Assembly: GCA_033439255.1 (NCBI GenBank)
Contig: CM065884.1
Coordinates: 2,604,001-2,668,000, forward strand
DNA length: 64,000 bases
Source of the DNA: Hericium rajendrae
Lineage: Eukaryota > Basidiomycota > Agaricomycetes > Russulales > Hericiaceae
Reading direction: 5' to 3'
Below are positions 5,994 to 60,910 of the stretch, piece after piece. Position 1 is the stretch's first letter. Every line of letters begins with the position of its first letter. The notes below the pieces were generated by a model. That model saw only the letters and a list, made by a program, of their open reading frames with translations. It did no database searches and had not been told where the DNA came from. Position numbers and translations under genes: made by a program.

Positions 5994-5994
5994 G

Positions 5995-26659: not shown

Positions 26660-26721
26660 CATCTGAAAAATTGGAATTTTACATAGCCAGAAGGCAGACT
26701 ATGAGAGCTCTATGCATGCTA

Positions 26722-28319
26722 CAGTGGCATGCGAAAAGAATGCACACTCTGCCACTTCAACATAAAAATGTAAATTCAAGTAGATCGAGCGAGTATTATA
26801 GAAACTCCAGTAAATAGATCTTGTAGCTAGACCTCTAAAGATTAAGTAGCAAAAAAATGGAGGAAAAGCGCCAAGAAACGGCCGAGATATCGATGAATAT
26901 GTGCTGCACGACCACGTGATGCCATGCTCGACGCATCACTGTGTCGCGGTTTGAGGGTATTAAACAATTTCAGAAAAAGTCCAAAAAAATCAGTAACGTG
27001 TGTAACCACCCCTAGCTGCCTTTAGTGCCTTCACCCGATCTGGAAGTGACCTATAAAGTTTCTGAATGACCCCAATATCCAAATTCTCCCATTCCTCCTT
27101 CAAAGCAAGCCACAACTCCTCTATGTTGCATGGACGGACTGGTCGGTGGCAGACAGCATGATCTACAAGGTCCCATGCATGCTCTATAATATTCATGTCT
27201 GGAGAAGAGGATGCCCAGGGGAGTAAATTGATATGATTCTTGGTGAACCACTGTGCAGCTTGGTGGGATGTGTGCTTGGGATCAAGGTCCTGCTGGAAAA
27301 TGATGGCTGAGGGATCAAGCTGGTGATCGGAGAGGGAGCTCTTGAGGGATTCTTCCAGAATGGCACAAAACTGGGCTGCATTCATTCGTCCTTCCACCCG
27401 GTGAAGCCGACCAGTCCCCTATGCTGTCAAGCAGCCCCAGACCTGCAAAGATCCTCCTCCATACTTGACTGTCTTCTCTACATTCCTGTCCAGAAATTGC
27501 TCTCCAGGCCTCCTCCAACAGTACCGTCTCCCATCTGAACCCCAGAGATTAAATTTGGACTCATCGGAGAACACAACCTGCTGCCAATCCTCCATGGTCC
27601 AATCGGCATGAGCTTCAGCCCAGATGCGATGCTTGTAGTGGTGAATTTTGGAGAGAAATGGCTTGCTCCAGCATACACGGCCATAGAGCCCCCTGCGAAT
27701 GAACATTCTGCGAATTGCCGTGGGATGAAGGTGAGGGAAAAGCTGGTGCTGAGCATCTGTTGCATCAACCACCTGGCCGGTGGCAATAGCTCGGGCTGCA
27801 CAACGTTCTGAATGGGGGCTCACAGCATGGGGACGGCCTGGGATTGGAACCCGATAGTATGGATCAGGATTTTGCAGCAACTGCCGATAGTTGCGTTCCG
27901 CTGTAGTGCGGTCAATTCCGAGTCGATCACCAATTTCGGACCAGGTGAAACCTTGAGCCTGATAATCAACAATCCGTGCACGTTTAGTGGGTGTGCAGAC
28001 CACCATGAGTAAGAGAAGATCAGAATGAGTGTGTATGCAAAAAAGATCAGGGGGGTATAATATGGAAATGAGTGTGATGTGCTGGCAAAAACTGCCGCGT
28101 CGTGTCATGTCAAACACGGCATCATGTGGTCGTGCAGGACATGCTCATCGATATCTCGACCGTTTCTCGGTGCTTTTCCTCCATTTTTTTGCTACTTCAT
28201 CTTTACATGTCTAGCTACGAGATCTGTTTACTGAAGTTTCTATAATACTCGCTTGATCTACTTGAATTTACGGTTTTTTGTCAAAGTGGTGGAGTGTGCA
28301 TTCTTTTTGCACGCCACTG
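26722..28319 (-). mobile_element. Tc1-family DNA transposon, 1598 bp
   Basis: Flanked by TA on both sides (26720-26721 and 28320-28321). TIRs are about 211 bp (26722-26932 and 28109-28319), beginning CAGTGGCRTGC and differing at only a few positions. It encodes a DD34E transposase on the minus strand. The long, well-kept TIRs and near-intact gene indicate a recent insertion. It sits in the left subterminal array of A1. Confidence 0.95.
26990..28006 (-). pseudogene. Tc1 transposase, DD34E, one in-frame stop
   Basis: A cut-and-paste transposase acting on the TIRs of its own element. The reading from ATG 28006 (MVVCTPTKRARIV) to the stop at 26990 is 338 codons, the usual Tc1 size. The N-terminal helix-turn-helix (residues about 8-45) is followed by a GRP-like linker (PIPGRPH, 54-60). 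Catalytic residues are D148 (FSDESKFNLW), the D in QQDLDPKHTS, and E in NIIEHAWDLV 35 residues after it (34 between). A single TAG at 27419-27421 interrupts the frame after WGCLTA; the rest is open. The usual family motif has QDND where this has QDLD. Probably inactive unless the stop is read through. Confidence 0.92.
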
Positions 28320-28461
28320 TATGTGGCTGCCTTATTTAGCTATATAGAGCTATAGAGACTATGATAGATATAAGAATCCTTATCAGACATTCTAAAATCA
28401 TCAGACAAATTATGTAGGTCTCTATCTCTCAGACAAAATCAGACTTTTCAGACTTTGACAT

Positions 28462-28745
28462 GTCTAGTATACCTGATACATCTGATAGTTTTCTGAATCT
28501 CTGACAGTCTGATTATTTTTTATATCTGAGATGTTTAGTATACCTGATACATCTGATAGTTTTCTGAATCTCTGACAGTCTGGTTATTTTTTATATCTGA
28601 GATGTCTAGTATACCTGATACATCTGATAGTTTTCTGAATCTCTGACAGTCTGATTATTTTTTATATCTGAGATGTCTAGTATACCTGATACATCTGATA
28701 GTTTTCTAAATCTCTGACAGTCTGGTTATTTTTAGTATCTGAGAT
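28462..28745. repeat. 71-bp tandem repeat, four copies
   Basis: Four consecutive 71 bp units (starts 28462, 28533, 28604, 28675), each containing ACATCTGATAGTTTTCTRAA and ending TATCTGAGAT. They differ by only a few bases. The repeat lies in a TCTGA/TCAGA-rich insertion in A1, so it is probably an expanded subterminal repeat of another element. Confidence 0.9.
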
Positions 28746-28859
28746 GCCTGATATATCTGATACATCTGATTATTGTCTGAAAATAAAAATTTCAGACATT
28801 GTAAAATTTCAGACAATTTAGGCAGATCAGAAAGCTTCAGGCCAGTCAGAGATTTTGGG

Positions 28860-29395
28860 TTTTGCTGATGTGCACGAAGCGTCGGGGGCAGTGGGCCTGA
28901 GCACGAGGTGTGCATGAGGCGCCGGGCTGCCACGGGTCCATGTGCGAGGCGCTGGGTTCTTGCGGGCTCGTGCACGATGCGTCAGGCCTGCGTGCAGGTG
29001 ATGCGACAGCGGGCCCATGCGCGGAGTGTTAGGCGGCGGGCGGCGGGTCCATGCATGAGGGACAGGGGACGTGCATGAGCGCCAGGCTGTCGCGGGCCCG
29101 TGCGCGAGTCCCTAGATTACCGCGAGCTCAAACGCGCAGGCCTGCGTGCAAGGCACGACTGCCATGGGCGGTCACGTGGGCGGACTGGGTGGTTGCACAG
29201 GCGGACAGAGCCACGCGTGATGCAAGATGCGCATGCACTGGCATGCTTGTCTCGGGTCGCAGTGGTCGTCGTGGTTGTTGGAGGCAGCGCGCCGGGTGCT
29301 AGTGACGTGGTGGCAAGGCAGCGAGGTCGAAGGAGGGTGGGGTGATGCAGGAGGGATGGCAGTAGGACGCGAGGGGGAGTGGAGGTGCGGGAGGA
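28860..29395. repeat. GC-rich minisatellite arm of A1
   Basis: CpG-rich DNA made of irregular repeats of themes such as GTGCACGAGGCG and GCGGGCCCGTGCGCGAG. Several open frames cross it on both strands with R/A/H/P-rich products and no conserved start, which is typical of low-complexity sequence. It is equivalent to 38650-39800, 43840-44960, 46560-47640 and 59620-60870. Confidence 0.7.
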
Positions 29396-29403
29396 CAAAA
29401 GAA

Positions 29404-29439
29404 GTCGAGAGTATTGCTCGAACGAGCGATACTCTTGAC
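29404..29439. repeat. Conserved hairpin of A1
   Basis: Arms GTCGAGAGTATTGCTCG and CGAGCGATACTCTTGAC around an AA loop, with two mismatches that can pair as G-U in RNA. It lies 30-40 nt beyond the donor-like GGTGAGTAA on the leftward strand, directly after a TGCTAAC-like branch-point match. Confidence 0.85.
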
Positions 29440-29872
29440 GTTAGCACGAAGAAATGAAATAAAAGTTTTTTTTACTCACCATCGCGGCCCTCTGCATCCT
29501 ACCGAGTCCCTCCGGCATGTGGTTCAATGAGTCAGAGAAAAAGAAGGAGGGTGGAGAGTGGAGGGAGGACAGTGAAGGTGGCAGGGACAGCGAGAAAAAC
29601 AAACTTCGATGCACGTTTCGGTGCTTCAGCTACCGAACGAGCGAATGTACGTTCCTCGAGCCACAACAAATCAAGGAAAATCACATAAATTCAGAGAAAA
29701 ACAGTATATCTATTAATTGTACATACGATTCGAATGAATGAGCAGTATAAGTGTCTACTGTACGTGAAGCTCATAGGGAGCCAAGTCCATCTAGTGGAGT
29801 CTGGCGCCCAGTCTCGACGCGATGCTCGGCAAGCGCTCGGCAGCTGCGAATCCCGGCTTCACCTGGGATTCC

Positions 29873-30127
29873 TATATAAAGCTCGCACGACGCACGTTGC
29901 CTCTTGCTCTTTAACCCCCACTGTCTCTTGCCACGTCGATGCCTTCGTCGATGTTCTTTGCTCGCTCGTCGCTGTTCGTTGCTCGCTCATTGTTATTTCT
30001 TGCTCATTTGTTATCTCTTGCTCGTTTGTTATCTCTAAGGTAATCTTTGAATTGTTGATCTCTTATTGCTTATACTAATACTAATGTCTTTAAGTTAGTT
30101 TTTTAGATTTCGCTTTTTGTTACTTTG
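29873..30127 (+). promoter_or_regulatory. TATA box, leader and micro-exon of A1
   Basis: TATATAAA 29873-29880 is followed about 25 nt later by GCACGTTGCCTCTTGCTCTT. The leader has repeated GTTGCTCGYT words and ends TCTCTAAG|GTAATC (30039/30040). The next stretch has TACTAATACTAAT as a branch point, an acceptor TTTTAG at 30106, a 21-nt exon-like segment (30107-30127) and a donor GTAAGTTC. It is the same arrangement as 48151-48408. Confidence 0.6.
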
Positions 30128-30544
30128 GTAAGTTCTTATGTGTTATCTTTATCTTCTAAGACTCATGTTTTCTTTTCTTCTCTTACTTAGTTTCTTATAT
30201 TCTTTTACTTATCTTATCTTCTTATCATATCTTATCTTCTTACATTATCTTATCTTATCTTTTTATTTTCTTACTTATATTTTCACTTTTTAGTTAGTAG
30301 TAGTGTTTGTGATATATCAATATGATCTTGATGCATTGAAATACTTTATATTTGTGTGATCAAATGTTATTAATTTTGATATGATTGTAGAATAGATTTA
30401 AAGTTCTAATAAATTTTATTGCTTTAATATATATATCAGGTCTACATATTAAATATAAGATATATAAGACACATATTGAATGTGGGATATGTGAGACATA
30501 TATTATATATAAGTTATGTGAGACACATATTGAGTATAGGATAT

Positions 30545-30780
30545 GTAAGACATATAAGCCTTATAGCTTTTATAGATACTGATAGCTTTCATAGCTAGTC
30601 ATACTATCATAGCTACATAGTCAGCTCTCATAGCTATGATAGCACTCTGTAGCACTCCATAGCATCACTTTTGAGCCTCATAGCACTACATAGCATCACC
30701 CTTTGGCTATGTGGGCTATACAATAAAGGGCGATACTATGAAGCTAGGAGATCTATGTAGACTTTATAGAGCTATGTACC
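30545..30780. repeat. TAGCTAT subterminal array of A1 (right)
   Basis: Words such as CATAGCTAGTCATACTATCA and TCATAGCTATGATAGCACTC, nearly identical to 48905-49125 in A4. Confidence 0.75.
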
Positions 30781-30800
30781 ACTGGCAAATTTTTCAGATG

Positions 30801-33119: not shown

Positions 33120-33415
33120 CTACATAAGTAATCATCCTGACCTCAACTACAAAAAAAAGTAAGAAGGCTACAAATATAACAACATCAGGCTGAAAAACAT
33201 AACAAAGATTATAAGACTTATCTTAGAACTACCAAAAAAGTAAAACAGACTACAAAAATAACAACATTACAAAGATAAGAAAAAGCAAAAATTGATTAAA
33301 AAGATAACAACACTTGCCTTATAATGACTACAAAAAAGCAAAAATAAATCTGAAAGACTACAACTTTATTAGTCTTAACAAGATAACAAAGATAACAAAA
33401 CTTATCTTTACGATT
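33120..33415 (-). repeat. Decayed micro-exon array (A-element leader relatives)
   Basis: On the minus strand this reads as repeated pyrimidine-rich TTTTTGTAG and AAGATAAGT/AAGGCAAG blocks with TTGTTATCTTTGTTATC between them. It is a diverged version of the array at 36105-36745. Confidence 0.5.
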
Positions 33416-33905
33416 CCTTAGAATTGTTTACTCTATACCACCTTTTCATAGTAAAAATGACATGCAAATGATGACCATCCCTATTAGGCAGTTGGCTTAT
33501 ATAATCACACATCTTCAATCTGACGAGTTTGCAGGTTCAACTTCAGCTCTGACCAGACTTTGTTGATTTAATGTAACTTGATCAATTCTCAATCAATTCA
33601 CCTGCTTACAAATACATCTAGATCTACTCACTTATTGCTTTCTGGTAGTATTTCTTGCATCCTGATTACAATTCTTTAGAATTGTTTACTCTATACTGCC
33701 TTTTCATAGTGAAAATGACATCAAAATGATGACTATGCCCATTAGGCAGTTGGCTTATATAATCACATATCTTCAATCTGATGAGTTTGCAGGTTCAATT
33801 CTAGCTCTGGCTGAACTTTTTCTTTTACACTTTGTTTACTGTAACTTGGTCAGTTCTTGACCAATTCACTCATTCTTAAATGCATCAGAATCTAATCATT
33901 TATCA
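33416..33905. repeat. 249-bp direct repeat, two copies, with tRNA-like cores
   Basis: Two copies start at GATTCCTTAGAATTGTTTAC (about 33412) and at the matching CTTTAGAATTGTTTACTC (about 33670). Each contains a segment resembling the D-to-T-arm part of a tRNA: TTAGGCAGTTGGCTTATA, then ATCTTCAATCTGA, then GCAGGTTCAAYT (a B-box match). It may be a tRNA-derived SINE unit duplicated in tandem. Confidence 0.5.
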
Positions 33906-34299
33906 CTTTTTAGTCATATTTTATGCATCTTGATCCATGCAGAACTTGCAGAATGTAAAGCATTCCTGTATTTTTTCCCTAGTATGCTTGATCTCCAGCT
34001 AGCTCAGTCAGTTCTTGACCGATTCACTTGTTCTCAAGTGCATCAGAATTTACTCATTCGTCACTTTTTAGCTGTATTTTATGTGTGTTTATCCATGCAG
34101 AATTTGTAGAATGTGAAGCACTTCTGTATTTCTCCTCCTAGTATGCTTGATCCTTAGTTATCTCAGTTCATTCTTCACTGATTTACTTGTTGTCATGTGG
34201 ATCAGATGCTACTCATCCATAGCTTTTGAATCATATTTTGTGCATTTTGATCCATGCAGAACTTGTAGAACACGAAGCACTTCTGTATTTTTCCTGCTA
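33906..34299. repeat. Tandem satellite, about 155 bp units (left part)
   Basis: Units marked by TAGTATGCTTGATCC start near 33983 and 34140, with an earlier diverged unit before them. Each contains CACTGATTCACTTGTTGTCA-like and GATCCATGCAGAACTTG-like blocks. The array continues at 34701 after the MITE. Confidence 0.65.
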
Positions 34300-34700
34300 C
34301 ATCAGGAACCTTCAAAACTTTCTGTTTGACCTGCAAGGCATCTGACAGTGTCTGCATGACCTGCAGCAGTTGCATCAGACACATCAGATACTCTCAGACA
34401 ACATCAGCTACTCTCAGCTAGCTGCAGAATATTTGACCTTAAGATTCAAAAAAGTATCAATGCAGAATGCTCACAGACTGATCAGAACTGCTCAGATTTA
34501 TGTAAATTTTAGATATTGAAAACTTTGTTGCATCTAATGATTAGAGTTGGATGACTACTATATCTGCCAATAGTTATTGACTTCAAAATATAAAATCTCT
34601 GATCAAAAATTGACCTCTAATTAGAGCCTGCAGCTGGATCAGGTCTTGCAGTTGATCAGACTCTGCAGGATCCATCAGAAAGTTTTGAAGGTTCCTGATG
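34300..34700. mobile_element. 401 bp MITE, copy 2, inside a satellite array
   Basis: Same length and orientation as 25057-25457, with perfect 25 bp TIRs and TA on both sides (34298-34299, 34701-34702). It interrupts the tandem satellite at TTCCTGC-TA-GTATGCTTG. Near identity with copy 1 shows recent movement of one source element. Confidence 0.9.
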
Positions 34701-34850
34701 TAGTATGCTTGATCCTTAGCTATCTCAGTCAATTTTTCACTGATTCACTTGTTGTCAAGTGGATCAGATGTTACTCATTCATCACTTTCTAGCCATATTT
34801 TATGTGTTATGATCCATGCAGAACTCACACAAAAACTCGATTTTGTGATC
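34701..34850. repeat. Tandem satellite, right part
   Basis: Continuation of the units of about 155 bp after the MITE, from TAGTATGCTTGATCCTTAG to GATCCATGCAGAACTCAC. Confidence 0.6.
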
Positions 34851-34994
34851 TATGTTGCTCAATCATTTTTAGTATATATTGAGCATACTCAATAAGTATA
34901 TATACTATATAGCAATATACTATGTGATCAAATCATTTAATGACTGTTGAAAGATTCAGTCTTAGTATGAGCTCCAATGTAGCAGTGCTTCACT

Positions 34995-35059
34995 ATGGTA
35001 TGGCCATACCATGATGAAGGTGGTCACGTGTCATTCACCATGGTACGGCCGTACCATGG
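34995..35059. repeat. Pair of related perfect palindromes
   Basis: ATGGTATGGCCATACCAT (34995-35012) and a 22 bp palindrome with half-site CCATGGTACGG (35038-35059). Their centres are 45 bp apart, and CACGTG hexamers lie between and after them (about 35025 and 35068). Their function is unknown. Their likeness suggests duplication of one site. Confidence 0.85.
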
Positions 35060-35635
35060 TTGTGATCACGTGATGATTACATAATCAAAACTCGGTGGTT
35101 CTCTTGAGTTTGCAAGTTCAATTCCAGTTCATGCCAGACTTTTTTGATATTTTTTAATACTGAAAACGATATAATCAATGAGCAATTAGCATTAGTACAA
35201 TGTCTACTCTTATAGTATATTATAAGTACAGAAATGCCTATAAATCTATGGTTTTGAAGACTGATTATATAATCAAAATTTCAGTTTTGAAGCACCAGCA
35301 GTAAAGTCTTGCTTCTTTATGAGCTTTACATCCTGCATGCTTGTCATGTTGGCTGCAAGGCTCGACAGGTATCTCCAAGTCATCTGCTGAGTGGTTGACA
35401 GTTTGGAACCAGGAGGTACTCGACCCGGTGACTCATCTTAGTCGTCTTGTATGTATCTCACTTGCTGAGCTGGCAGACTAATTTCTTTATAGGTCTCTGA
35501 ATCTTGCACAAACTAGTATGTATTAGAGCTTATCAAAACCACATTGACAGCTGCTTCCAGTTCATGTCTTCTGAGCTGTGATAGGCTATCTGCCTGGTGA
35601 GCAATCAACCAATCATTATCATCTGAATGATCTTG
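35060..35635. other. Spacer with one tRNA B-box match
   Basis: TTGCAAGTTCAATTCC at about 35110-35125 resembles the B-box seen in the 249-bp repeats. No gene recognised in the rest. Confidence 0.35.
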
Positions 35636-35957
35636 AGGTAAGTCCCTCAGTTCTTCACCGATTCACTCGTTCTAAATTGAGCTGAAATGTACTGATTAAT
35701 CACTTTTCAGACATGTTACATAGACCCCAATCTGCTCAGAACTTGAAAATCAAAACTCGAAACTGAGATTTCTCCCCTAAGATCTTGACCTTGAGGTAAG
35801 TCTAGCAGTTCTCCACCGATTTAATTGTTCTAAAATGCACTGAAATGTACTGATTACCAGCATTTCAGACATGCTACATAGGCCCCAGTCCATCCAGAAC
35901 TCAAAAATCAAAACTCAAAATTGAGATCTTCCTTTCAAGATCTTGACCTTGAGGTAG
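35636..35957. repeat. Direct repeat, two units of about 165 bp
   Basis: Two units, each ending GATCTTGACCTTGAGGTA and each containing TCTCCACCGATT/TCTTCACCGATTCAC and CAGACATGYTACATAG. They share the CACCGATTCACT theme with the satellite at 33906-34850, so they may be distant members of it. Confidence 0.6.
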
Positions 35958-36104
35958 CTAGAGAATTTATAGAGAATTATAATCAATCTGATCAGTAAGA
36001 CTTGACATCATTTATGCACTATTTCTAAATATAACTAACAATGAAAAAGGAATCGTATTGCCGTGCAAAGCATCGGCCCTCTTCCACCAAGTAGAAGTGT
36101 AGTC

Positions 36105-36745
36105 AAGACTACAAAAAGTGAAAATATACTAGAAAGATAACAATATAGATGTAAGGAACATAAGAAAGATAACAAAGCTTACCTTAAAAGTATATCAAAG
36201 TGTACAAAAAGCGAAAATGTAAGAAAACATAACAAAACATAACTAACAATGATAAGAAAGACTACAAAAAAGCGAAATATAGTGAAAAGGTTACAACATT
36301 AGTGTAAGCAACATAAGAAAGATAACAAATCATACCTAAGAAGTATAACAAAGACTACAAAAAAGCAAAAATGAACTAGAAAGATAACAACATCAGTTGT
36401 AATAAGACAACAAAGATAACAAAACTTACCTTAACAATGTAACAAACACTACAAAAAGTGAAAAGATAACAACTTAAAAGGTAACAAACCTTACCTTACA
36501 GTTGTAGCAATGACTACAAAAAAGCGAAAAGTGTACAAAAAGATAACAACATTAGTTGTAATAAGATAACAAAGATAACAAATGCTTACCTTAGAAGTGT
36601 AGCAACACTACAAAAAAGCGAAAATAGATCAGAAAGATAACAAAGTCAACAATACTTATCTTAGGAGTAGTAGTCACATAACTACCAAAAAGCGAAAATG
36701 AAGTCAAAGGTAATAAAGATAACAAACTTACCTTCAAGAGCAAAG
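36105..36745 (-). repeat. Tandem array of splice-cassette units (A-element leader, expanded)
   Basis: Seven or so units on the minus strand, each about 65-150 bp. A typical unit runs CAACTAATG (branch-point-like), TTTTCGCTTTTTTGTAG (pyrimidine tract and acceptor), 18 nt (TGTTGCTACACTTCTAAG) and GTAAG (donor). Donor-like sites on the plus strand read CTTACCTT near 36182, 36427, 36496, 36593 and 36729, with variants near 36333 and 36657. The same cassette occurs once to three times in complete A-elements. Right of it (36746-36790) is leader-like sequence GCAGAGAGAGAGG as in A2. Confidence 0.6.
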
Positions 36746-36859
36746 ATGGTGGTGGTTGCAGAGAGAGAGGTATTTCGGAGCAAACTTGTCAGATATGTCT
36801 TTTAATCAGAGTTTAAATTAGCCACATAGCTACAATTAAACAAAAACATATGATCTGGC

Positions 36860-37152: not shown

Positions 37153-37859
37153 CATCTGAGAAATTTACCATTGATATATAAGGCTATGTAAGCTATATAG
37201 CTTTCCTAGGTCCATAGCTGTCCTCTTTTATACATAGCAGTCTCATAGCAGTCAAGTAAGCTATCATAGCTTGCCATAGCTACCATAGCATAGGACATAA
37301 GCTACATAGCTGATATAGCATAGCATATGATATATCATAGCTATCATAGCTATTATAGCATAAAATAGCTATAGAAGCTATGCCAGCTATATGCTATATC
37401 TTTGTTGTTATATTATATCTAGCTAATAAGATTCCTACCTACTCTATCTCACTTCTGTCAAATATAATGTGCCAGCAAATAAAATAAAATATTATTTGCT
37501 CAATAGCTATATACAGCTTAATCACAATATCAGAAGTTTAAAACATAATATATTATTCTTACAACTTTATTACAAAACATAATTAAAACTACACATACTA
37601 CTATATAAAAGATAACAAACTTATAATACTACAAAAAGTGAAAATATAAGTAAGAAAAAGAAGACATTAGTATTAAAAGATAACTAAAATGACATATGAA
37701 CACTTACCAAACCAACAAAAAAGCGAAAATCTATAAGACAACTTGAAAGACATCAGTGTAAGACATAAGAAAAAGCTTACCTATGTAGGACTACAATAGT
37801 ACTGTAATAAGTATAAAAGCATTAGCATTAGGGATGACAGACAAAGAATAAAAACGTAC

Positions 37860-38161
37860 CTTAACAAAGACAGCAACGATGACAAGGGAGTGACCGAGCG
37901 ACGACGATGAGGGAGAGAGCAATAACGATGACGATGAGGGACAACAAGTGAGCAAGCGACGGCAATGAAAGAGTGACAATGATGGCGATGAGAGAGCAAC
38001 AACTATAATGATGAGAGAGCGACAACGACGACGATGAGCAAGCAAGTGACGACGACGATGAGCAAGCAAGTGACGACGACGATGAGCAAGCAAGCGACGA
38101 CAACGAGGCGAGTGGAGGTTTAAGATGCGAGAGGCAATGTGCATCGCGCGAGCCTTATATA
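37860..38161 (-). promoter_or_regulatory. TATA box and expanded leader of A3
   Basis: Reverse-strand TATATAAG at 38154-38161, then a leader containing three tandem 24-bp units (38030-38100, plus-strand theme GAGCAAGCAAGTGACGACGA). The open frames here (R/S/L-rich) are by-products of the repeat. The leader ends at AAG|GTACGT (about 37860). Confidence 0.6.
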
Positions 38162-38622
38162 CGAATCCTGGGCGAAGCCGAGAATTGTGGTTGCTGAGCG
38201 TTGCTGAATGCCGCGTCAGAGGCTAAATGGCAGACGTGATAACTTTGACTCTGCTGTCCGGTCTTGTATGCTACATTATGTAGATAGTCAGCTCATTTAA
38301 TCCGTGTGTATTACTATTCTACAACACTGTGTTTTGTTTTGTACTTATAGGCATTTTATTCAATTTGTTACATCGTGAGAAACTTTGACTCACTCGTTCG
38401 GTGGCTGAAGCACCGAACTCACGTCGAGGCTTCTCACTTGCTGATTCTTCCTTCCTCCTCCCTCAATTTCTCTGTCCCCTCCCCCTCCCCCTTCCCTCCC
38501 TCGCCTCGCTTCACTCTTCTCCTCTGTCGACAATCAAGACGGACCAGGCAGAGATTCAGTAAGCTGGGGGCTGTAGGTAAGCTGAAAAAGTTGTTCTTTC
38601 ATGTTCGTTCGTACTAACACAG

Positions 38623-38648
38623 AGTGTCGCTCGGTTTCGAGCAACACT
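38623..38648. repeat. Conserved hairpin of A3
   Basis: Arms AGTGTCGCTCG and CGAGCAACACT (10 of 11 pairs) around GTTT. It begins four nucleotides after a perfect TACTAAC branch-point sequence on the plus strand. The next AG after the stem is CACTCAG near 38807-38813, about 160 nt on. Confidence 0.8.
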
Positions 38649-38960
38649 TGTTCTTATGACGGCTCCCCACGTCCCGCACGTCGACCTCCCACCCCTCCCA
38701 TCGCCTGCCACCTGTTCCCGTTGCCCGTTGCCTGTCCCTATTGCCTGTCCCTGTTGCCCGTTGCCCATTCCCGCACCCTTCTCCCCCCTCTCATCACCAT
38801 CTGTGCACTCAGACGACGTTTGCCTGTTGAACACTATGCGCACGGCTTCGGACAATATCAACGCGGCCCATTGCTGCCTCCGCACACCCAGAGCATCCGT
38901 GCGCCCGCCTTGCCTGCCTTCACCGTGCCACGTCACGTGCGAAACACGTCGTAGAGTCCC

Positions 38961-38974
38961 GTTGCCATGGCAAT
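38961..38974. promoter_or_regulatory. RFX/Crt1 X-box-like palindrome in A3
   Basis: GTTGCCATGGCAAT, one base from the palindromic X-box GTTGCCATGGCAAC bound by RFX-family factors. Equivalent sites occur in A2, A5 and A6. Confidence 0.6.
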
Positions 38975-40145
38975 GGGATTCCAAAGTCATCCCGCTGGTG
39001 CCTCAAGCACCCGCAGCATACCTCCTTACACCTCACGGCCCACGCCTCGCCTCCTCGCCCAATGTTGCATGTGCGTGCTGCCCCCGCATGCTCTTCTGAT
39101 GTCCCGCATGCGTGCATAATGCCCTGCACATGCACACACTCCGACCCTGCTTGCAACGCCCCGGGCATGCATATAATGCCCCGCTCTCGCCTTCCACGCA
39201 CCGTTCTCGCCCGCTGGGCCCCATGCTCAAATGACTCCACCCGGGCTACATCGTCGTGTGGGGCCTTCATGCCCATGCACCAGAGCAACACCCTGTGGCC
39301 CACGCAACATCCCGTCAGTGTGGGGATGCCAGCGCACAGCCCCGATAATGTGTGCAGGGCTGTTTACAGTCCATCAATGCCCTGCTCGTGCACCCCACAC
39401 CTCCGTCATGCAGACCTGCTGCATCGCGCATGGGCCTGCTGTGTTGCGCATGGCCTCCGCGCCCTGTCCCGGCCTCCTGCACCTCGCGCACGTGCTCACT
39501 GCACCCCAATCCCTGGTGTATAGACCTTGTGCCTGCACGCCCGCCATGCCTCTCAACGCATCATGCACAGGCCCAGTGCCTGGTGCCACCTCCCGCACTC
39601 TGCCTGCACCTCAAGCACACCCACCGTGCCCCCCGCACACCTCCCGCACACCTCCCACCCATCCCTCGCACCTCACACTCCCGCCATGTGCTGCCCTTTG
39701 CGCAGATCCCCGCACCTCGTGCACGCCCTCCGCGCCTTGCGCACAAATGCCGCGTCGTGCGCGCATGCTGCGCCTTGGGCACGTATGTCTTCTCGTGCCT
39801 CACTGGCACCATTCATAGCTGTAGTACAGTGAACTGTAGTAGCAGTTGTGTCAATAAATATAATTGATTTTGACTCAAACCTTTTGTACTTGTGTTGATT
39901 TGACAGTAAACATAGCATTAATAGCAGTCATAGCTCACCCTGCTGAGTATGATAGTGTTACATAGTTCATACTACTGTCTATGGAAGCTATGGTAACACA
40001 ACATAGCTAGTACTACTGCCTATGGAAGCTATGGAGATTCTCATAGCTCTACATAGCTGGATAAGCAAACTTCATAGCTCTGATAGCTCAATGATAGCAC
40101 TTATAATTTAACCTGCAGCTATATATAAAACAGATTTCTCAGATG

Positions 40146-40720
40146 CTGAGAAGAAGATAGAGGGGTACCTCACTCAATTTGTATCTGATTTTGACGTTCT
40201 TAAATGTATCAGAAAGGTCCTTTTAGCTGCTTTCCAATGAGCCTTTATACATTGTGTTATGTTTCAAACTCATGGAACACAATGCATTTTTGTTTTGAAG
40301 GAAGATTTAATGATATCTTAGTCAATTTTGGGCACTTTTTCTCGATCTTGGATGCATTGAGAAGGTGTGAAAAATAGCTTTCCAACAAGATTTCATAGAC
40401 TATGTCATGTTCAAAAGTCATAGGATGCAATCCATTTTTGTTTTTGATCTTTTAAGAAAAAGATAGAGGGGTACCTCATTTAATTCATATCTGATTTCAA
40501 TGTTCTTAGATGTTTTCAAAAGATATTTTCAACTACTTTCCAACAAGTTTTTATATGCCATGTTATGTGCAAAACTCATGAAATGTGATGTAGTTTTATT
40601 TTGAAAGAAGATTGAATAATATCTTAGTCAATTCTAAGTGCTTTGTCTCAATCTTAGATGTATTGGAAAGGTCTGATTTACTGCATCTCAATAAGATATT
40701 GTACAGTCTGATATCTGCAA
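40146..40720. repeat. Satellite of about 150 bp units (right of A3)
   Basis: Four further units with markers near 40198, 40347, 40506 and 40654. They continue the array interrupted at 37152. Confidence 0.75.
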
Positions 40721-41016
40721 AATTCATTTGTGCAGGACCATTTCTGCTTTTGATCTTGATTTATCTTAATTAGTTTTTTGTCGAAAGCCCTATGTAATTG
40801 CTTCTCAATAAGCTCTTATGCATTATATTGTACTATTTTGACCATAGTTTCACTAGATGTAATCTGTGACCTTAGTCTACTAATCTAGAGGAAGTTTACA
40901 GCTAAAGGTGATCCACTTGAATCTTGAGTTTGTAATAACTTTGTCAACCACTTTCTATATCAGCAAATGTCTAGTACATGGATTGGAGCAATTTTTAGTT
41001 TACTTTGATTTATCAA
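40721..41016. other. AT-rich spacer
   Basis: Diverged satellite edge, then a weak match to the 7705-7760 repeat arm near 40841-40895. Nothing else recognised. Confidence 0.35.
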
Positions 41017-41692
41017 AAATCTTCAAAACTTTTTATTTGACCTGCAAGACATCTGACAGTATCTAATTGTATTTGCATGACCTATAGCAGTTGCATCAGA
41101 TACTAACATGCCTTGCAAGTTGGCACCTACACTTGTTAATTTTTGATTATTCTGCTTGATTTGATATTGAGCTAAAATTTAAATGTAAGTTGATATCTGA
41201 CTATGTCTGAGAGATTACACCTGTCTGGCTAAACTGACAAAAAAAATAATCTGATCAACATTCAGAATCTGAAGAATATTCAAAATCTGACTATGTCTGG
41301 AAGACTATACCCTGCCTGATCTATCTGACAGCAAAAAATCTGAAAGATATCCAAAATCTGACTGTGTCTGAGAGACTACACCCTGCCTAGCTGACCTGAC
41401 AAGAAAAAAAAATCTGATTAACATCCAAAATCTGGAGAACATCCAAAATCTGAACAACATTCAAAATCTGACTGTGTTTGAGAGACTACTCCCTGCCTGA
41501 TCTGTCTGGCAACAGAAGATATTTCAAATCTGATTAGGTCTGGATGTAAATACATATCTGATAAAATCTGACTCTACTTGACTTGCTTGATTTTGTTTGT
41601 GGCCAGGAATGAACAATCTGTCAGGTATATAAGATGATCAGACAAGATCAGACAGAATAAGTTCCAGCAGAAAGTTTGTAAGAGTACTGATG
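41017..41692. mobile_element. TCTGAC-rich repeat with MITE-like left end, copy 2
   Basis: Left end ATCAAAAATCTTCAAAACTT and the following 95 bp match the start of the 401 bp MITE (GACCTGCAAGACATCTGACA). From 41126 it matches 8054-8620, and it ends AAGAGTACTGATG at 41692. It joins the two repeat types into one element of 676 bp, or is a chimera of them. Confidence 0.6.
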
Positions 41693-42495
41693 AAATGATG
41701 TCCGAGTTCCATTGCCATAGCAATGGGACTCAACAGTGCAGGTACACGTGGACGTCAAGGGCATGGGCTGTAATGAGGCCCTCACACATGTTGTTGATAA
41801 TATGCAGATGGTGCAGTGCAGTGGATGGGTGTAGTCTATGGCTGGGTGCACAAAGCTGGGGACTGAGGTGCCAGTATCATTGCACATCAGACATGGGGTG
41901 TTGACATTGCATGCAGCATTGGCGGTGTAGTTGGAAAGACGATGAGGATGATGTAAAGGTGATGGAAACAGTGCAAAGGCAGCAGGGATGACAAGGATGT
42001 ATGGTGAGTGGTGAGAATTGTGCAGGTGTCAATGGAAGGTGTGAAGGTGTCGAATGAATGAGTGAAGGTGTCAAACAAATGAGTGTCACTTGAAATCAAG
42101 TGACACTCTTGATTAGCATGAGAAGATAATGATTAGGCCTTTTTTTTTTACTCACCTACAGCCCTTTCTACCTGTTATAACTCTACCTTGGCCATGTTGA
42201 TAGTTGATAGAGAACAAAAGAAAGCAAGAGAAGGAGGAAATAGGAAGAAGGAGAAGGGAGAGTGAGAGAAAGTGGGTAAGAAGGAGCAAGGCTCAATGTG
42301 TTCACTTAGAGCTTCAGTCACCAAATGTATAAAGAGACATAACAAATTGAATAAAATAGCTAAAAATACAAAAAAGGACTACAAGCTATGGATTGTGTAT
42401 TTACATAGAATGCATGAGCCAACTCTGTAATAAGTGTACAGTATATTGCCAGGCAGCAGCATTAGAATAATGAAATCTGATCCCTAGTCTCTGAC
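41693..42495 (+). mobile_element. A-element fragment A6
   Basis: Internal part of an A-element with C-to-T decay. X-box-like ATTGCCATAGCAAT 41711-41724, arm 41730-42060, perfect hairpin 42081-42108 (GAGTGTCACTTGA arms, AA loop), donor-like TTACTCACC at 42150-42158, purine-rich leader region to about 42300, GAGCTTCAGTCACC remnant near 42318-42332. TIRs and TATA are missing. It is truncated on both sides by other repeats. Confidence 0.65.
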
Positions 42496-42587
42496 ATGAA
42501 TAGTAAATTGAGATAGTGTAGCAGAGTCCATACATGCATGTAGATATGATTAAATAAAGAGAATGAGACAGTGAAGCATCAACTATA
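42496..42587 (-). mobile_element. LTR piece, 520 bp family, copy 3 (left part)
   Basis: ATGAATAGTAAATTGAGATA onward matches the middle of the solo LTR at 20550-21069. It is cut at 42587 by A2 and continues at 45420. Fossil. Confidence 0.75.
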
Positions 42588-43800
42588 CATCTGAAAAATT
42601 TGCCAGTGGTACATAGCTCTATAAAGTCTACATAGATCTCCTAGCTTTATAGTATCGTCCTTTATTGTATAGCCCACATAGCCAAAGAGAGATGCTATGT
42701 AGTGCTATGAAGCTCAAGGGTGATGCTATGGAGTGCTATCATAGTTATGATAGCTGACTATGCAGCTACTATAGTATGTAGAGCTATAAGAGCTATAAGT
42801 GTCTATTAAAGCTATGAGACTTATGTCACTTATATATTCTATATTTAATATATAGATCTGACATATTTATTAAAGCAATAAAGCCTATTGAAACTATAAA
42901 TTCTGATTGAATTCACATAGCAAGACTCCAAATAAAATGATCACACCAATATAGGCTTTGTTTAATGCATCAAGATTATATTTATATTATTATGCTATTA
43001 TAAACAAAGACACTACTACTGATCACAAAAAGATATAAACATTACACTTACTACTAAAAGATAAACACAAGATAAGTATACTAGACTTACAAAATTTACA
43101 AAAAGCGAAAATAGTCTACAAAATAAAAGGTTGGTTAGTAACAAACCAACAGTGACAAAAGATTTAAGACATACCAGAAGTGATAAAAAGCGAAAATGAA
43201 TAATCCTAAGATATGAATGACATCAGCATAGGACAGCAAACCTAACAAAGAAAGACTTACCAAAGGTAGAGAAGAAAGGCCCAAAAGTCAGAGCGAAAGG
43301 GGAATGTAGTGGTTGAAGAGAGAGAGAGAGAATGCACATCATGCAAGGGTTATATAGGTGAGTGCGGGTTTGCCCGGTGGAGCCCCAAATGTGGCTGCCA
43401 GGTGCTGCCGGGAGTCGTGGCTGGGGCTAAGTGGTAGACTTCAATAAGTGGCTGTTGCTGCCCAGTAGTATACGATATGATACATACCTACTAAGCTCAT
43501 TCGATTCACTGTACTAAATAATTTCTCCTCTGTCGTTTTTATTCAAATTTAATAGCATTTTATTTGATTTACTATGCATGGGACAGTTTAAACTTGCGCG
43601 TTCAGTTGCTGATGCACCGAAGTCACGTCGTTCGACTCAGACTCCACTAGCACTCAGTACAATCCCTTTGTTTGCTCTTCAACTTACTCCTCTCTCCCCT
43701 CATCGCTCCTCAAGTCGAAGGTCGGAAGGGCTTGGTGGGAACTGGAAAGGCCATCAGGTAAGTAAATAGAGTCTCTTATCTTTGTATCTGTGCTAATCTC

Positions 43801-43832
43801 GAGAGTACCACTCATTATTGAGTGGTACTCTC
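43801..43832. repeat. Conserved hairpin of A2
   Basis: Perfect 14-bp stem GAGAGTACCACTCA with TTAT loop. It follows TGTGCTAATCTC (branch-like) and precedes an AG-poor C/T-rich tract. The stem sequence differs from A1, A3, A5 and A6 but pairing is kept. Confidence 0.9.
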
Positions 43833-44425
43833 ATTTCTTTTCGGTTCTCTACTCCTCGCGACACCCCACCATCTTTGACATCCCGTTGCTCCCCCACGCA
43901 CCTCTGCACCTCTTCCCACTGCCACCTCCATTGCCTATGATGCCCATGCATCACCCCCCGGGTGCTGACCACCCACTGCCTGATGCCCTTGCCTGCCCAT
44001 GTCCATGGACACCATGGGCGGGCCAGCGCATGCACACACACGCAGGGCCCCACCAGCTCATGGTGGCCCCATCAACTCCGCCGGCACGTACGTGGCCCCG
44101 CCAATGCGCACTCACGTCCTCTAATGACAGCACCAGCAGATGGTGCCACGTGTTTGCATCAGCCCACGCAGACCAACCATGGCGTGCGCACCCCGGTGCC
44201 TTCTTCTATGCCTGTCACACGTCCTATGTTCCCTCCCCGCATCGTGCACCCCGCTGTCTGTTCCTGCCCTCCACGCACTGCCGCATCACCTGCAACCCAT
44301 GCGCGGCTCGAACACAGTATGGTACGCACCCCCACCATCCAATGCCAGCTCACCGCACGGGCACCAGTATGTGCCGTCCACTTCAGCAGCATGTGCTGAC
44401 ATGTCCGTGACCCATTGTCATGCTT

Positions 44426-44439
44426 GTTGCCATGGCAAT
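44426..44439. promoter_or_regulatory. RFX/Crt1 X-box-like palindrome in A2
   Basis: GTTGCCATGGCAAT, the same sequence as in A3, in the same arm of the element. Confidence 0.6.
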
Positions 44440-45419
44440 GGGCACGACTTTGCGTGCCAGCCCTCAACACCACCCCGTTCACGTATGCCCGCGTATGGTG
44501 CCACTGGCTCCCACTTTCCTGGATGCATGTGCACATGCACCCTCACATATGGCCATGCACACGCAGCAGCGAGTAGCATGAGTGTATGGCCCTAGCTGTG
44601 TGCGCACGGTCCCATAGAACACCGCCAATGCATGGCCACGAGACTGTGCACACATGCGCGTGTTGTGCAGTGTCCCAGTTGGCCTCATGCAGACCCAACG
44701 ACCTGCACATGGTCATAGCCCTCACACGAGGCAAGGAGCCTGCATGCGACCCTCACGCCTCGCGCACGGCCCCAGCAGCACACGGCCAGTGCATGGTTGC
44801 AACCCCCGCAGACTGCATGTGTACGGTGACACATGTCATTGCCATGCCTGTCCTGCACCATGCACTCTCACCGTCTCCTACAGCTCACGCCCCATGCCAG
44901 CACATACAAGGCAGATACATGTAACGTGTCCGTCGCCGTTTCGGCTTGTGCATGTGGGGCTTTCAGTCCAGTGCACAGTTTGCGCGCATCAGCGACAACA
45001 CGTGCGAATCTGCTGATCTCATGTGTGCTCGTGCTAGATTATTTTGTATGCTACATTTTATAGTAGTTGAGTCTGATATTATACTTTGTACTTATAATGT
45101 GTCATAATGCTCGAAATATAGATTCTTATAGCAACTATAGACTGTTTAACAGCCTGAAATTTCATAGCAGCCTATGGGGCTTGATATTGGACATAGTATC
45201 TATAGTACATATAGAGAGAGACCAAAAGCATATAGGTTACATAGCAAACATAGTAGTAAGCTATTACTATGTAGTATTACATAGCTATCACTCATGGCTA
45301 TAATAGCTATGATAGCTCTCATAGTCCTATATAGGTATGCAGCCCAACTACATAGCAGCCATAGCACTATAAAAGTAGGCATAGCATTGGCTGGCAGCTA
45401 TGTAGATTTTTTTCAGATG

Positions 45420-45479
45420 TAGTGTAAATGTTGAAGAAAGGAATATCAAGTTAAGAAATGAAATGTACAGTTCTTAACA
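45420..45479 (-). mobile_element. LTR piece, 520 bp family, copy 3 (right part)
   Basis: Continues the LTR begun at 42496, ending at TTCTTAACA, the reverse of the LTR start TGTTAAGAA. Removing A2 and one TA rejoins the two pieces in register with 20550-21069. Confidence 0.8.
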
Positions 45480-46179
45480 GTAAGTTGGATAGGTATGAGA
45501 TATTTGGAGAAATATGTAATGTATATGCCTACCTACATTTGCATATGCACAGAGCAAAATGCTATTAGAATAGTCAATTGCAATCATAATATATATACTG
45601 AGAATTGCAATCAATGAGCAATAAAAGAAAGCTAATAGACAGTTAATAAATTATGCAATTGTGCAAAGTATAGGTCAGAGCTATACTATAGTTATATATC
45701 TATATAAGGCTTGTATATAGCTCATAAATCTTATATAATTATAATTGTTAGCTATATAAATTTCAACTTTCCTCAGTGTAAAGCTGAACTATACTATTGT
45801 CTTACTCTATTTTGCCTTAACTAGTCATCGCAAAACTTCTCATCTTGCTACACTTGACTTAAGTTTTTGTAGCAATTATTTAACTTATAAATTATGTTTT
45901 AAATCCTTCTAATATAATCATTATCACTACAGGCGTGACCCACTCCTTGGAGCACTTAGTAGTGATAGCACTCCTCAGCTGCGCAAAAATGCCCGTTGCC
46001 TCCAATACTTCATATACCAAGAGTTCTCATATGAATGTACTTGTATGCAAATTTTCATCATAAAACTTGACAATGGTGAGGAGGTATGGAGAGCATGATT
46101 CTGCTGCCCAAGCAGTGGCATTCTCACTCCTCGAACCAAGTCGAAAAGAGGGGCTTCCTGTATCTTTCTTGTCCCATAT
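45480..46179. other. AT-rich spacer
   Basis: A few TATAGCTAT words at 45660-45760. 45930-46179 is more mixed in composition but has no frame I can support on either strand. Confidence 0.4.
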
Positions 46180-46990
46180 CATCTGAAAAATCTGAAATCT
46201 ACATAGCTGCCAGCCAATGCTATGTCTGGTATCATAGTGCTATGGCTGCTATGTAGTTGGGCCACACAGCTATACAGGACTATGGCAGCTATCATAGCTA
46301 TCATAGTCATGGGTGATGGGTACATAGTATTACATAGTAATAGGACATTACTATGCCTGCTATGTAACTCATGTATTTCTAGTCTCCCTTTATGTATCCT
46401 ATAGATACTATGTTCCATACAGAGCTTTAGTCTGCTATAATATCTACAGTTAATGTAGAGTCTATGATATTGATACTATACTCAAAACAGGTCAAATTAA
46501 ATTATATTTAACTACTACGACAATCAAGTACACTAAGTTACATGTATGCCTGCGAGGTGTGACAAGGCATGCACGCGCAAGGGCATGACTGGTATGCACA
46601 ACACTGCACGTGAGGTGCAATGGTGCACACGAAGCCCGGGACCCGTGCCTGAGAGTCGCATGCTGTGAGGCCCGTGCACGATAGGATGGGCCTGCGTTAT
46701 GCAGCAAGCCTGCGCGTGGGAGATGTGGAACGCGGGGACCGTTCGCAAGGCGTGTGGAATGTGTGCATGGCATGGGGACTGTTCCCGAGGCGCGGGGACT
46801 GTTCGCGTGGTGCGGAGGACGTTCGCGTGGTGCAGACAACGTGCGCATGGTGCAGATGACGTGCGCATGGTGCAGATGACGTGCGCGTGGGCAGATGATG
46901 TGCACGAGGGCAACGGCAATGTGCGTGAGGACGAGGGCGAGGGCGATGTGCACGAGGTCGATGGCGACATGCGCGAGGCGAGGGTGACAT

Positions 46991-47060
46991 GCACGAGGCG
47001 AGGGCGACCCGCACGAGGCGAGGGCGACCCGCACGAGGCGAGGGCGACCCGCACGAGGCG
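46991..47060. repeat. 20-bp tandem repeat in the A4 arm
   Basis: Three and a half copies of GCACGAGGCGAGGGCGACCC. A second 20-bp series (GTGCGCATGGTGCAGATGAC) lies at 46849-46890. The 326-codon minus-strand frame across them is a product of this repetition. Confidence 0.9.
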
Positions 47061-47682
47061 CGAGGGACCCGCATGAGGTGTGGGCGGTGGCGGGCCCGTG
47101 CGCAATGCTGCAACCTGCACGCGGGAGACGCGAGGCACGCGGGGAGGCATGTGCGAAGCGTCGGGGGCAGCGGGCCTGGGACGAGGTGTGCACGAGGCGC
47201 CGGGCTGCTGCGGGTCCATGCACGAGGTGCTGGGTGATCACGGGCTCGTGGGCGACGCATCAGGCCTGCGTGCGTGAGACATGGTGGCGGGCCCATGCAT
47301 GAGGCACTGGACGACATGCACGGGGCATTGGGTAGCGTGTGCGAGGCACGGCGGGCGGCTGGTCCACATGCGAGGGACGAGAGACATGACCGAGATGCAG
47401 GGCTGTTGCGGGCCCGTGCGCAGTGCGGCAGGCATGCGTGGGAGGCGCAATGGCGTAGATGGTTGCGCGGATGGAGAGGGCCACATGCGACATGTGTGTG
47501 CTGGCATGCCCGTCCCGGGTCGTGGAGGATCGGGCGCACTCTGCTGATCGTGACCATTGGAGGCGGCGTGCCGGGCGCTAGTGACGTGACGGCAAGGTGG
47601 CAAGGTCGGTGGAGGGCAAAGTGATGCGGGAGGGGTGGCAGTTGGAGGTGAGGGGGAGTGAGGGCACGGGAGGACAAAAGAA

Positions 47683-47718
47683 GTCGAGAGTATCGCTCGA
47701 ACGAGCGATACTCTCGAC
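47683..47718. repeat. Conserved hairpin of A4
   Basis: Perfect 17-bp arms GTCGAGAGTATCGCTCG around AA. On the minus strand it follows GTGCTAAT, and the next AG after the stem is CACTAG, about 105 nt on. Confidence 0.92.
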
Positions 47719-48150
47719 ATTAGCACGAATAAATGAAATAAAAGTATTTTTTACTCACCGTCGAGACCCTCTGCATCCGCCTGAGTCCCTCCTGCATGTG
47801 GTTTGATGAGTTAGAGGGAGAGTAGGAGGGTGGAGGGAGGAGAGTGGAGAGTGGATGTGGTGGAGACAGCGAGAGACGAACTTCGACGTGTGTTTCGGTG
47901 CTTCAGCCACTGAACGAGCGAAGCTACATTTCTCGAACCACCACAAATCAAGAAAAATTACACAAATTTAGAAAAAAAACAGTAGAGCCATAAGTTGTAA
48001 ATGTGATTCGAATGAATGAGCATTGTAAGTATCTACTATACATCAAGCTCACAGAGAGCCAAGGCCATTTAGTGGAGTCTGGCCCCAGTCTCTGACGCGA
48101 TGCTCGGCAAGCGCCCAGCAGCCACGAATCCCGGCTCCACCCGGGATTTG

Positions 48151-48408
48151 TATATAAGGCTCGCGCGATGCACGCTGCCTCTTGCTCTTTAACTCCCACT
48201 ATCTCTTGTCATGTCGATGCCTTCGTCAACGTCGTTTGCTTGCTTGTCATTGTTTTTTTGCTTGCTCGTTGTTGTTTTCTGCTTGCTCGTTGTTTCTTGC
48301 TCGTTGTTGCTGTCTTTAAGGTAATGTTTTAATTGTTGGTCTCTTATTGCTTATACTAATACTAATGTCTTTAAGTTAGTTTCTTAGATTTTGCTTTTTG
48401 TTACTTTG
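48151..48408 (+). promoter_or_regulatory. TATA box, leader and micro-exon of A4
   Basis: TATATAAG 48151-48158, then CGCGCGATGCACGCTGCCTC. Leader ends TCTTTAAG|GTAATG at 48320. TACTAATACTAAT precedes the acceptor TTTCTTAG (48387). The 21-nt segment 48388-48408 ends in TTTG|GTAAGTTC. If spliced onward, the next strong acceptor is at the element end, TTTTTCAG|ATG. Confidence 0.6.
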
Positions 48409-49144
48409 GTAAGTTCTTATATGTTATCTTTATCTTCTAAGACTCATGTTTTCTTATCTTTTCTTACTTAGTTTCTTATATTCTCTTATCTTATGACCTT
48501 TTACTTATCTTATCTTATCTTCTTATCTTCTTATCTTCTTGTATTATCTTATCTTATCTTATCTTTTTATTATCTCATCTTATCTTTTTATTATCTTATC
48601 TTATCTTATTATTTTCTTACTTATATTTTCACTTTTTGGTTAGTAGTAGTGTTTGTATTATCAATATAATCTTGATGCTTTGAAATATTTTAAATCTGTG
48701 TGATCATATGTTATTAATTTTGATATGATTGTAGAAAAGATTTAAAGTTCTAATAAATTTTATTGCTTTAATATGTATATCAGATCTATATATTAAATAT
48801 AAGATATATGAGACACATATTGAATGTAGGATATGTCTCACATATATTATACATAGGTTATGTGAGACACATATTGAATATAGGATATATAAGACACATA
48901 AGCCTTATAGCTTTGATAGATACTGATAGCTTTGATAGCTAGTCATACTATCATAGCTACATAGTCAGCTCTCATAGCTATGATAGCACTCCATAGCACT
49001 CCATAGCATCACCTTTGAGCCTCATAGCACTCCATAGCATCACCCTTTGGCTATATGGGCTATACAATAAAAGGCGATACTATGAAGCTAGGAGATCTAT
49101 GTAGACTTTATAGAGCTATGTATCACTGGCAAATTTTTCAGATG

Positions 49145-60606: not shown

Positions 60607-60620
60607 GTTGCCACGGCAAC
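60607..60620. promoter_or_regulatory. RFX/Crt1 X-box-like palindrome in A5
   Basis: GTTGCC-AC-GGCAAC, perfect X-box half sites. It is nested in a longer imperfect inverted repeat (60594-60632). Confidence 0.65.
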
Positions 60621-60880: not shown

Positions 60881-60910
60881 AGAGTATTGCTCATTCTCGA
60901 GCAATACTCT
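60881..60910. repeat. Conserved hairpin of A5
   Basis: Perfect 12-bp stem AGAGTATTGCTC with a six-base loop. On the minus strand it follows GTACTAATAAAG. Confidence 0.9.

Follow-up and report, generated by a model that had tools for sequence, protein, structure and literature searches.

A 64,000-nt stretch of the Hericium rajendrae genome (contig CM065884.1 of assembly GCA_033439255.1, positions 2,604,001 to 2,668,000 of the forward strand; hereafter the window) harbors five copies of a terminal inverted repeat (TIR) element that carry promoter-like and splice-like signals and no gene. The locus raises the question of what such a family descends from and why its center has been kept. A preliminary description proposed an outward-facing transcription and splicing device, maintained by selection or by the repeated spread of functional copies. 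Instead, the family probably belongs to the CMCT clade, near Plavaka, and has lost its gene while keeping the ends of its parent together with a divergent promoter and 5′-intron region. The five copies and their single module order, already recognized in the preliminary description, were confirmed to within a few bases.

A1, 26660–30800, + strand: complete copy of 4.1 kb with insertions; a nested Tc1/mariner-like element and a TCTGA-repeat block lie in its left part.
A2, 42588–45419, − strand: complete copy within a long terminal repeat (LTR)-like fragment; target duplication TA; the gap-free empty site is the copy at 20920–21072.
A3, 37153–40145, − strand: complete copy within a 306-bp tandem repeat; target duplication CT; gap-free empty site.
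A4, 46180–49144, + strand: complete copy and reference anatomy, based on its TIRs, arrays, and core.
A5, 59244–62187, + strand: complete copy; target duplication AT.

With the exception of A1, the copies are 2.8–3.0 kb long. When the TATA box reads to the right, all five are arranged as TIR, array, GC-rich arm, hairpin, branch point and donor, TTCGGTG motif, TATA box, leader, two cassettes, array, and TIR. Pairwise identity ranges from 46 to 58%, except for A1 and A4, which are 80% identical over 2032 bp. The anatomy of A4 is as follows, where L and R denote models of the end on the GC-arm side and on the leader side, respectively, each built without the copy being scored.

Left (L-type) end, 46180–46450, + strand: TIR CATCTGAAAAAT and TAGCTAT-rich array; leave-one-out score 150.6 bits with the L model and 28.2 bits with the R model.
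GC-rich arm, 46560–47680, − strand: C-rich on the left-going strand; degenerate repeat of 20-bp period, autocorrelation 0.414 at 20 bp against a base of 0.301.
Covarying hairpin or palindrome, 47683–47718, no strand assigned: 8 of 17 pairs changed on both sides over six sequences; RNA fold z −6.26.
Left-going intron signals, 47719–47759, − strand: branch point GTGCTAAT and donor GGTGAGT, from alignments of six sequences.
TTCGGTGCTTCAGCNACYGAAC motif, 47894–47915, + strand: 17 of 22 columns invariant in four lineages, top 0.2% of windows.
TATATAA box of the right-going unit, 48151–48157, + strand: 7 of 7 columns invariant in four lineages, top 0.2% of windows.
Leader, 48158–48640, + strand: cassettes at 48388 and 48626.
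Right (R-type) end, 48890–49144, + strand: array and TIR; leave-one-out score 172.6 bits with the R model and 25.0 bits with the L model.

All ten ends of A1–A5 start with CATCTGARAA when read inward. Matching 2-bp target duplications flank three of the five copies (CT in A3, TA in A2, and AT in A5), and the flanks of A3 and A2, joined minus one CT or TA, align to uninterrupted homologues with no gap at the junction. With 132 occurrences, AGCTAT/ATAGCT is enriched roughly four-fold in the window over 100 block shuffles (mean 31, maximum 46); 75 of these occurrences lie inside A1–A5, and in A2–A5 every one falls within the outer 450 bp of an end. The two ends are separable in A2, A3, A4, and A5 (own model 79–196 bits, other model 13–34 bits or no hit). 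Once the nested element is omitted, the left end of A1 scores 45.9 bits with the L model against 6.0 bits with the R model.

These features match the terminal plan of the CMCT clade, in which most termini are CA..TG and target site duplications span 2–5 bp (PMC12730594). Transposases of the clade carry C(2)C and H(3–4)H motifs. All ten ends are CA..TG, and the duplications are of 2 bp in three of five copies, two of which have empty sites. PlavakaB, a member of this clade from Agaricomycotina, has CATCA..TGATG termini and 2 or 3 bp duplications (PMC12730594). The present family resembles it in its CATC..GATG termini, its 2-bp duplications (again in three of five copies), its fungal host, and, at a related locus described below, a coding remnant with a sub-threshold DUF6830 match next to an end type of the family. 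It differs in reading CATCTGA rather than CATCA in the five full copies and in lacking a transposase, and the divergent core and 20-bp-repeat arm do not appear in the accessible description of PlavakaB (PMC12730594). EnSpm/CACTA elements sensu stricto have CAC..GTG termini and 3-bp duplications (PMC12730594), neither of which is found here. The 7–8 bp duplications of KDZ (Kyakuja, Dileera, Zisupton) and hAT elements are likewise absent, the two empty sites showing 2 bp.

The link to a transposase comes from a further locus, D (8618–9770), which combines a coding remnant with an end of the family.

D coding remnant, 8618–9346, + strand: transposase-like C-terminus, decayed, with two stops and one probable intron.
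D L-type end, 9585–9770, − strand: TAGCTAT array and TIR; 42.9 bits with the L model from the TIR inward; 13.3 bits with the R model, not at the TIR.

The coding remnant reads toward the TIR, and its stop lies about 240 bp inside the L-type end. Its best Pfam match is PF20722, DUF6830 (E 0.0026, 17.7 bits, one of two families when matches to E 10 are admitted), which we take to be a C-terminal domain of Plavaka transposases. Since D joins a coding remnant to an L-type end, the GC-arm end would correspond to the end beside the 3′ terminus of the transposase-like gene, and the GC arm would therefore sit where the transposase gene formerly stood. The DUF6830 profile had no match in any of 14 control genomes and is hence uninformative there, and a search of viral contigs with the 98-residue open reading frame (ORF) of D yielded five pattern matches, none of which was confirmed.

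The arm itself is 38–44% C on the left-going strand in all five copies. Its 20-bp autocorrelation is the strongest in A3, A4, and A5, third-strongest in A2, and not shown by the partial arm of A1. We read it as a fast-turning, decayed 20-bp repeat that may occupy the former transposase gene site. A coding function was rejected on three counts. Left-going ORF lengths show no excess over dinucleotide shuffles in any of the five arms (P 0.44–1.0), the lone P below 0.05 in ten arm ORF tests belonging to an antisense ORF in A5 (P 0.04); seven arm ORFs have no Pfam match at E 0.001; and of the eight gaps that separate A1 from A4 in the alignment from arm to core, only one has a length divisible by three. 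The preliminary description, which had noted no protein frame, was accurate in this respect. The arm shared by A1 and A4 suggests that their ancestor was already gene-less. By eye, a second palindrome surrounds TTGCCATGGCAA in the GC arms of A3 (38955–38980), A2 (44411–44450), and A5 (60593–60632) and in the decayed core B (41701–41730).

Conservation of the modules was assessed in a four-lineage alignment of A2–A5, from which A1 was omitted as a near relative of A4. Invariant columns number 644 of 2383 gapless columns, compared with 252–281 of 2153–2402 in each of five block-shuffled controls, and the excess is confined to both ends and the center. The GC arm and most of the leader contain 9–16 and 5–18 invariant columns per 100, respectively, near the controls, whose highest bins reach 15–21. 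Thus, of the modules singled out in the preliminary description, those at the ends and in the center exceed background, unlike the GC arm and a large share of the leader.

Within the center, the TTCGGTGCTTCAGCNACYGAAC motif has five hits in the window at up to three mismatches, where 0.01 would be expected by chance; the TTCGGTG motif gave no hits in viral contigs and three bacterial hits in genome contigs, which were judged to be chance. The preliminary description called the GTTCGGTG sequence a hairpin. It is an inverted repeat without covariation (none of its seven pairs is changed on both sides), so the structural reading was rejected and "motif" is the better term. A CGG-N11-CCG zinc-cluster site, suggested by inspection, was discarded: its half-sites are variable, whereas the sequence between them hardly changes. 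On the opposite strand, the GGTRAGTAA donor reported earlier is found in four of the five copies, A3 having GGTAAGCTG instead. Invariance across the four lineages is 6 of 10 columns for the donor and 7 of 11 for the branch point, which beats most windows without standing out (top 10% and 7%). By sequence alone, the hairpin arms rank lower (top 21% and 12% of windows).

The pairing of these arms is a different matter. It was examined in A1–A5 together with one decayed core.

B, 42077–42496, + strand: decayed core with hairpin, donor, and motif remnant; core hidden Markov model E 4.1e-33.

Over these six sequences, 90.6% of cells pair, the count of pairs changed on both sides is matched by none of 500 shuffles, and pairing is lost once the partner arm is slid. 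Of five covariation measures, the one counting further pair types fails to exceed shuffles (381 of 500). In five of the six sequences the left-going strand has a better fold than its shuffles (z −2.6 to −6.3); for A3 the difference is doubtful (z −1.5). The wobble cells comprise four GT and three AC and favor no strand; therefore, an RNA hairpin, a DNA palindrome, and palindrome self-correction all fit.

The right-going unit is marked by TTTTCGCTTTTT cassettes, which resemble splice acceptors coupled to very short exons. The 13-base cassette ATTTTCGCTTTTT has eight exact occurrences, all in A copies or in fragment C, and 25 occurrences in the window at up to two mismatches, six of these outside the A copies and C.

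C, 36060–36760, − strand: leader fragment with eight tandem cassettes; a further piece lies at 33130–33440.

Among 20 cassettes of the TTTTCGCTTTTT type in leader regions, an acceptor stands directly before or after 18, a donor 8–38 nt downstream of 11, and a branch point upstream of 13, whereas the same signals occur at 26%, 17%, and 22% of all positions in these regions. Donor-like sites in the five leaders number 10 on the sense strand and none on the antisense strand (shuffles total about 0.75). For C, the counts are 11 and 0 within the cassette block and 12 and 4 over the whole stretch (shuffles 2.2). Strict donor–branch–acceptor introns exceed shuffles in A2, A3, and A5 (P 0.013–0.023) but not in A1 and A4 (P 0.18–0.20), A4 having one per strand. 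The whole C stretch (33130–36760) is not enriched for them (four sense, five antisense, shuffle mean 2.4); enrichment there is limited to the cassette block (three against zero). Thus, the splicing signals of the preliminary description are enriched on the expected strand, with strict introns at shuffle level in two of the copies. In the C block, four of the eight TTTTCGCTTTTT-type cassettes are followed by YAG, a 14–19-nt segment, and a GT[AG][AT]G donor, making the block a candidate tandem micro-exon array.

Taken together, these modules allow the following mechanism to be hypothesized. A transposase supplied in trans would bind the TAGCTAT arrays, cut at the CATCTGA termini, and leave 2-bp target duplications. 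Each copy would retain the ends of the autonomous element and its central divergent promoter region. The left-going unit, composed of the TTCGGTG motif, a first exon, the GGTRAGT donor, the CTAAY branch point, and the hairpin, may formerly have driven the transposase gene, whose place would now be held by the decaying GC-rich repeat of 20-bp period. The right-going unit, with its TATATAA box, CT-rich leader, and cassettes of T-tract, acceptor, tiny exon, and donor, could represent a spliced leader belonging either to a second gene or to a non-coding transcript.

Several observations weigh against this interpretation. The DUF6830 match of D falls below the 24.3-bit gathering cut-off, and the last 98 residues of the remnant alone match nothing. 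D is without a core, an unrelated repeat occupying 8052–8620, so its promoter is not visible, and the sharing of the core by the D lineage is presumed. No autonomous copy was found in the window, and no intact transposase was recognized among the ORFs tested. The flanks of A1 (GA/TT) and A4 (AT/TA) carry no matching duplication. The CATCA termini of PlavakaB are absent from all ten ends of the five full copies, each of which reads CATCTGA; the family is therefore not filed under PlavakaB.

The comparison of A1 with A4 adds a further point of this kind. Their hairpin–intron block has 6 changes in 87 positions, compared with 67 in 336 in the rest of the core (Fisher 0.002), or 2 in 69 against 55 in 292 without CpG sites, which hints at constraint beyond mere inheritance; the blocks used for this test were picked after the data had been seen. 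For selection on the TATA box and the TTCGGTG motif, the pair shows no excess over the core background (Fisher 0.37 and 0.38). Divergence between the two copies drops from about 20% to 2–12% per 60 bp near position 30040 in A1. This pattern suggests recombination or gene conversion, and tests for selection on the pair are therefore blurred.

Two rival explanations credit the center with a function of its own. In one, which continues the preliminary description, the element is a mobile bidirectional promoter under selection, transcribing outward in both directions and splicing its leader exons onto host neighbors, with such copies spreading better. The anatomy is what this explanation would lead one to expect: a TATA box on one strand and donor, branch point, and hairpin on the other in all five copies, both units aimed at the element ends, no conserved ORF, and a hairpin–intron block conserved in A1/A4 after the loss of coding. 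Inheritance from an autonomous promoter, however, yields the same anatomy, and because the coding remnant of D lies beside an L-type end, the supposed bidirectional promoter would most simply be a promoter and 5′-intron region left over from the autonomous element. Moreover, the TATA box and TTCGGTG motif are no better conserved in A1/A4 than the surrounding core, the recombination signal blurs the selection tests, and much of the leader lies near shuffle level. We therefore regard selection for an outward promoter as unlikely. What stands of the preliminary description is a non-coding TIR family whose center holds a TATA box and, on the opposite strand, a donor, a branch point, and a covarying hairpin; its outward-facing device, as worded, gives way to the Plavaka-like leftover that D suggests. 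In the other, the core encodes a functional non-coding RNA, with the right-going transcript made up of very short exons in series and the hairpin by the branch point serving as a splicing switch or structured RNA. The covariation and the splice signals around the cassettes speak for this reading. However, the pairing is strand-neutral, so that a protein-bound DNA palindrome or self-correction during replication fits equally well; one covariation measure fails; no Rfam family reaches its gathering score; strict introns are at shuffle level in A1 and A4; and the number of cassettes varies from two in each A copy to eight in C. Such an RNA is a rather unlikely basis for the family. A bolder version of these readings has the gene-less family persist through a transcribed, spliced non-coding core (divergent promoter, covarying hairpin at the branch point, and tandem exons of less than 20 nt) that is selected on non-autonomous copies and can donate first exons to host genes; it is unlikely, though not negligibly so.

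The remaining alternatives concern the origin of the element. If the element were of Pack type, transposon ends would have enclosed a bidirectional promoter taken from the host, along with its two first exons. The center does resemble two gene starts, and its intron signals are like those of the host SPT16 gene, for which nine introns of 45–67 nt were marked by hand in the window (junctions inferred from homology and ORF breaks). Yet the center is common to four lineages at about 50% overall identity, so any capture must be old, and the window holds no host copy of the core; such a capture is very unlikely. Alternatively, the parent could belong to another superfamily with 2-bp duplications (ISL2EU/PHIS, ESTA, or Mirage), the DUF6830-like remnant being incidental. 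The departure from the exact PlavakaB termini and the sub-threshold DUF6830 score would suit this, and Harbinger relatives can make 2-bp duplications (PMC12730594). PHISTA and ESTA, however, make TA duplications (PMC12730594), whereas CT and AT are found here besides TA, and the D remnant sits just inside an L-type end. Another parent of this kind is very improbable indeed, and the Plavaka-like leftover remains the preferred account.

Three classes of non-autonomous elements invite comparison. Defective CACTA elements such as maize dSpm have short TIRs, subterminal arrays of short motifs, and internal loss of the transposase, with coding exons usually kept in part. The Hericium family shares the first three traits with dSpm; in contrast, its coding region appears to have been replaced by a repeat arm, its promoter-like center is kept, and it has neither CAC termini nor 3-bp duplications. 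Pack-TYPE elements are non-autonomous TIR elements with a captured host gene fragment; the present copies are likewise non-autonomous TIR elements with a gene-like interior, but this interior is old, common to all five copies, and includes no captured host gene recognized in the window. Miniature inverted-repeat transposable elements are non-coding, TIR-bounded, and multi-copy, as is this family, which differs in being about 3 kb long and internally structured.

Two incomplete copies add to the inventory of the window.

A6, 63051–63640, − strand: R-type end with partial leader; 153.7 bits with the R-end model; aligns to A3.
F, 19575–21098, + strand: decayed copy with L-type end, C-rich arm, an LTR-like fragment replacing the core, and R TIR; left end 71.1 bits with the L model and 13.6 bits with the R model.

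The single ends of A6 (at 63051) and of a further locus, G (at 21278), read CATCAGAG. G consists of this lone end, CATCAGAGAAAA, followed by TATAGC sequence, with a weak L-type score of 4.4 bits. No Pfam match at E 0.1 was obtained for G (21278–23481, six frames) or for 62380–63051 (three frames).

The window is fungal in gene content, with SPT16, EH-domain, kinase, and Zn2Cys6 genes recognized. The nested element in A1 (26720–28321), presumably Tc1/mariner, has long inverted repeats of 213 bp (88%) along with the remnant of a transposase-like ORF (27419–28144, − strand), whose helix-turn-helix match is below cut-off. LTR-like sequence lies at 20576–21069, at 24568–25062, and at 42496–42587 with 45420–45482; two copies are 85% identical, and one fragment is split by A2. 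An ORF of 1020 residues at 2970–6032 (− strand) has a weak, below-cut-off match to a gag-type aspartyl protease and is perhaps part of a GC-rich retroelement. A 406-bp non-coding repeat occurs at 25054–25459 and 34297–34702, the two copies being 99% identical; by eye, its inverted ends, CATCAGGAACCTTCAAAACTTTCTG, are flanked by TA on both sides and have the published form of the PlavakaB terminus. TCTGA-repeat blocks of related kind are found in B, D, C, and A1. The idea that they might be another form of subterminal array within the superfamily was considered and dismissed, as they are separate repeats common to D and B (90% over 569 bp) and are related to a repeat with CATCAGG..CCTGATG ends of its own.

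The preliminary description knew of no described family with this plan. None was recognized among the open-access papers listed in the searches made, subscription papers and Repbase lying outside their scope, and the terminal plan itself fits the described CMCT clade.

Non-autonomous DNA transposons usually retain little beyond their ends. The L-type end together with the transposase-like remnant offers a concrete handle on the parent element, and the branch-point hairpin and tandem tiny exons would be unusual and directly testable arrangements of splice sites. With its coding capacity lost and its putative divergent promoter-and-intron center kept, the family provides a natural test of whether an element's own transcription aids its mobility or survival.

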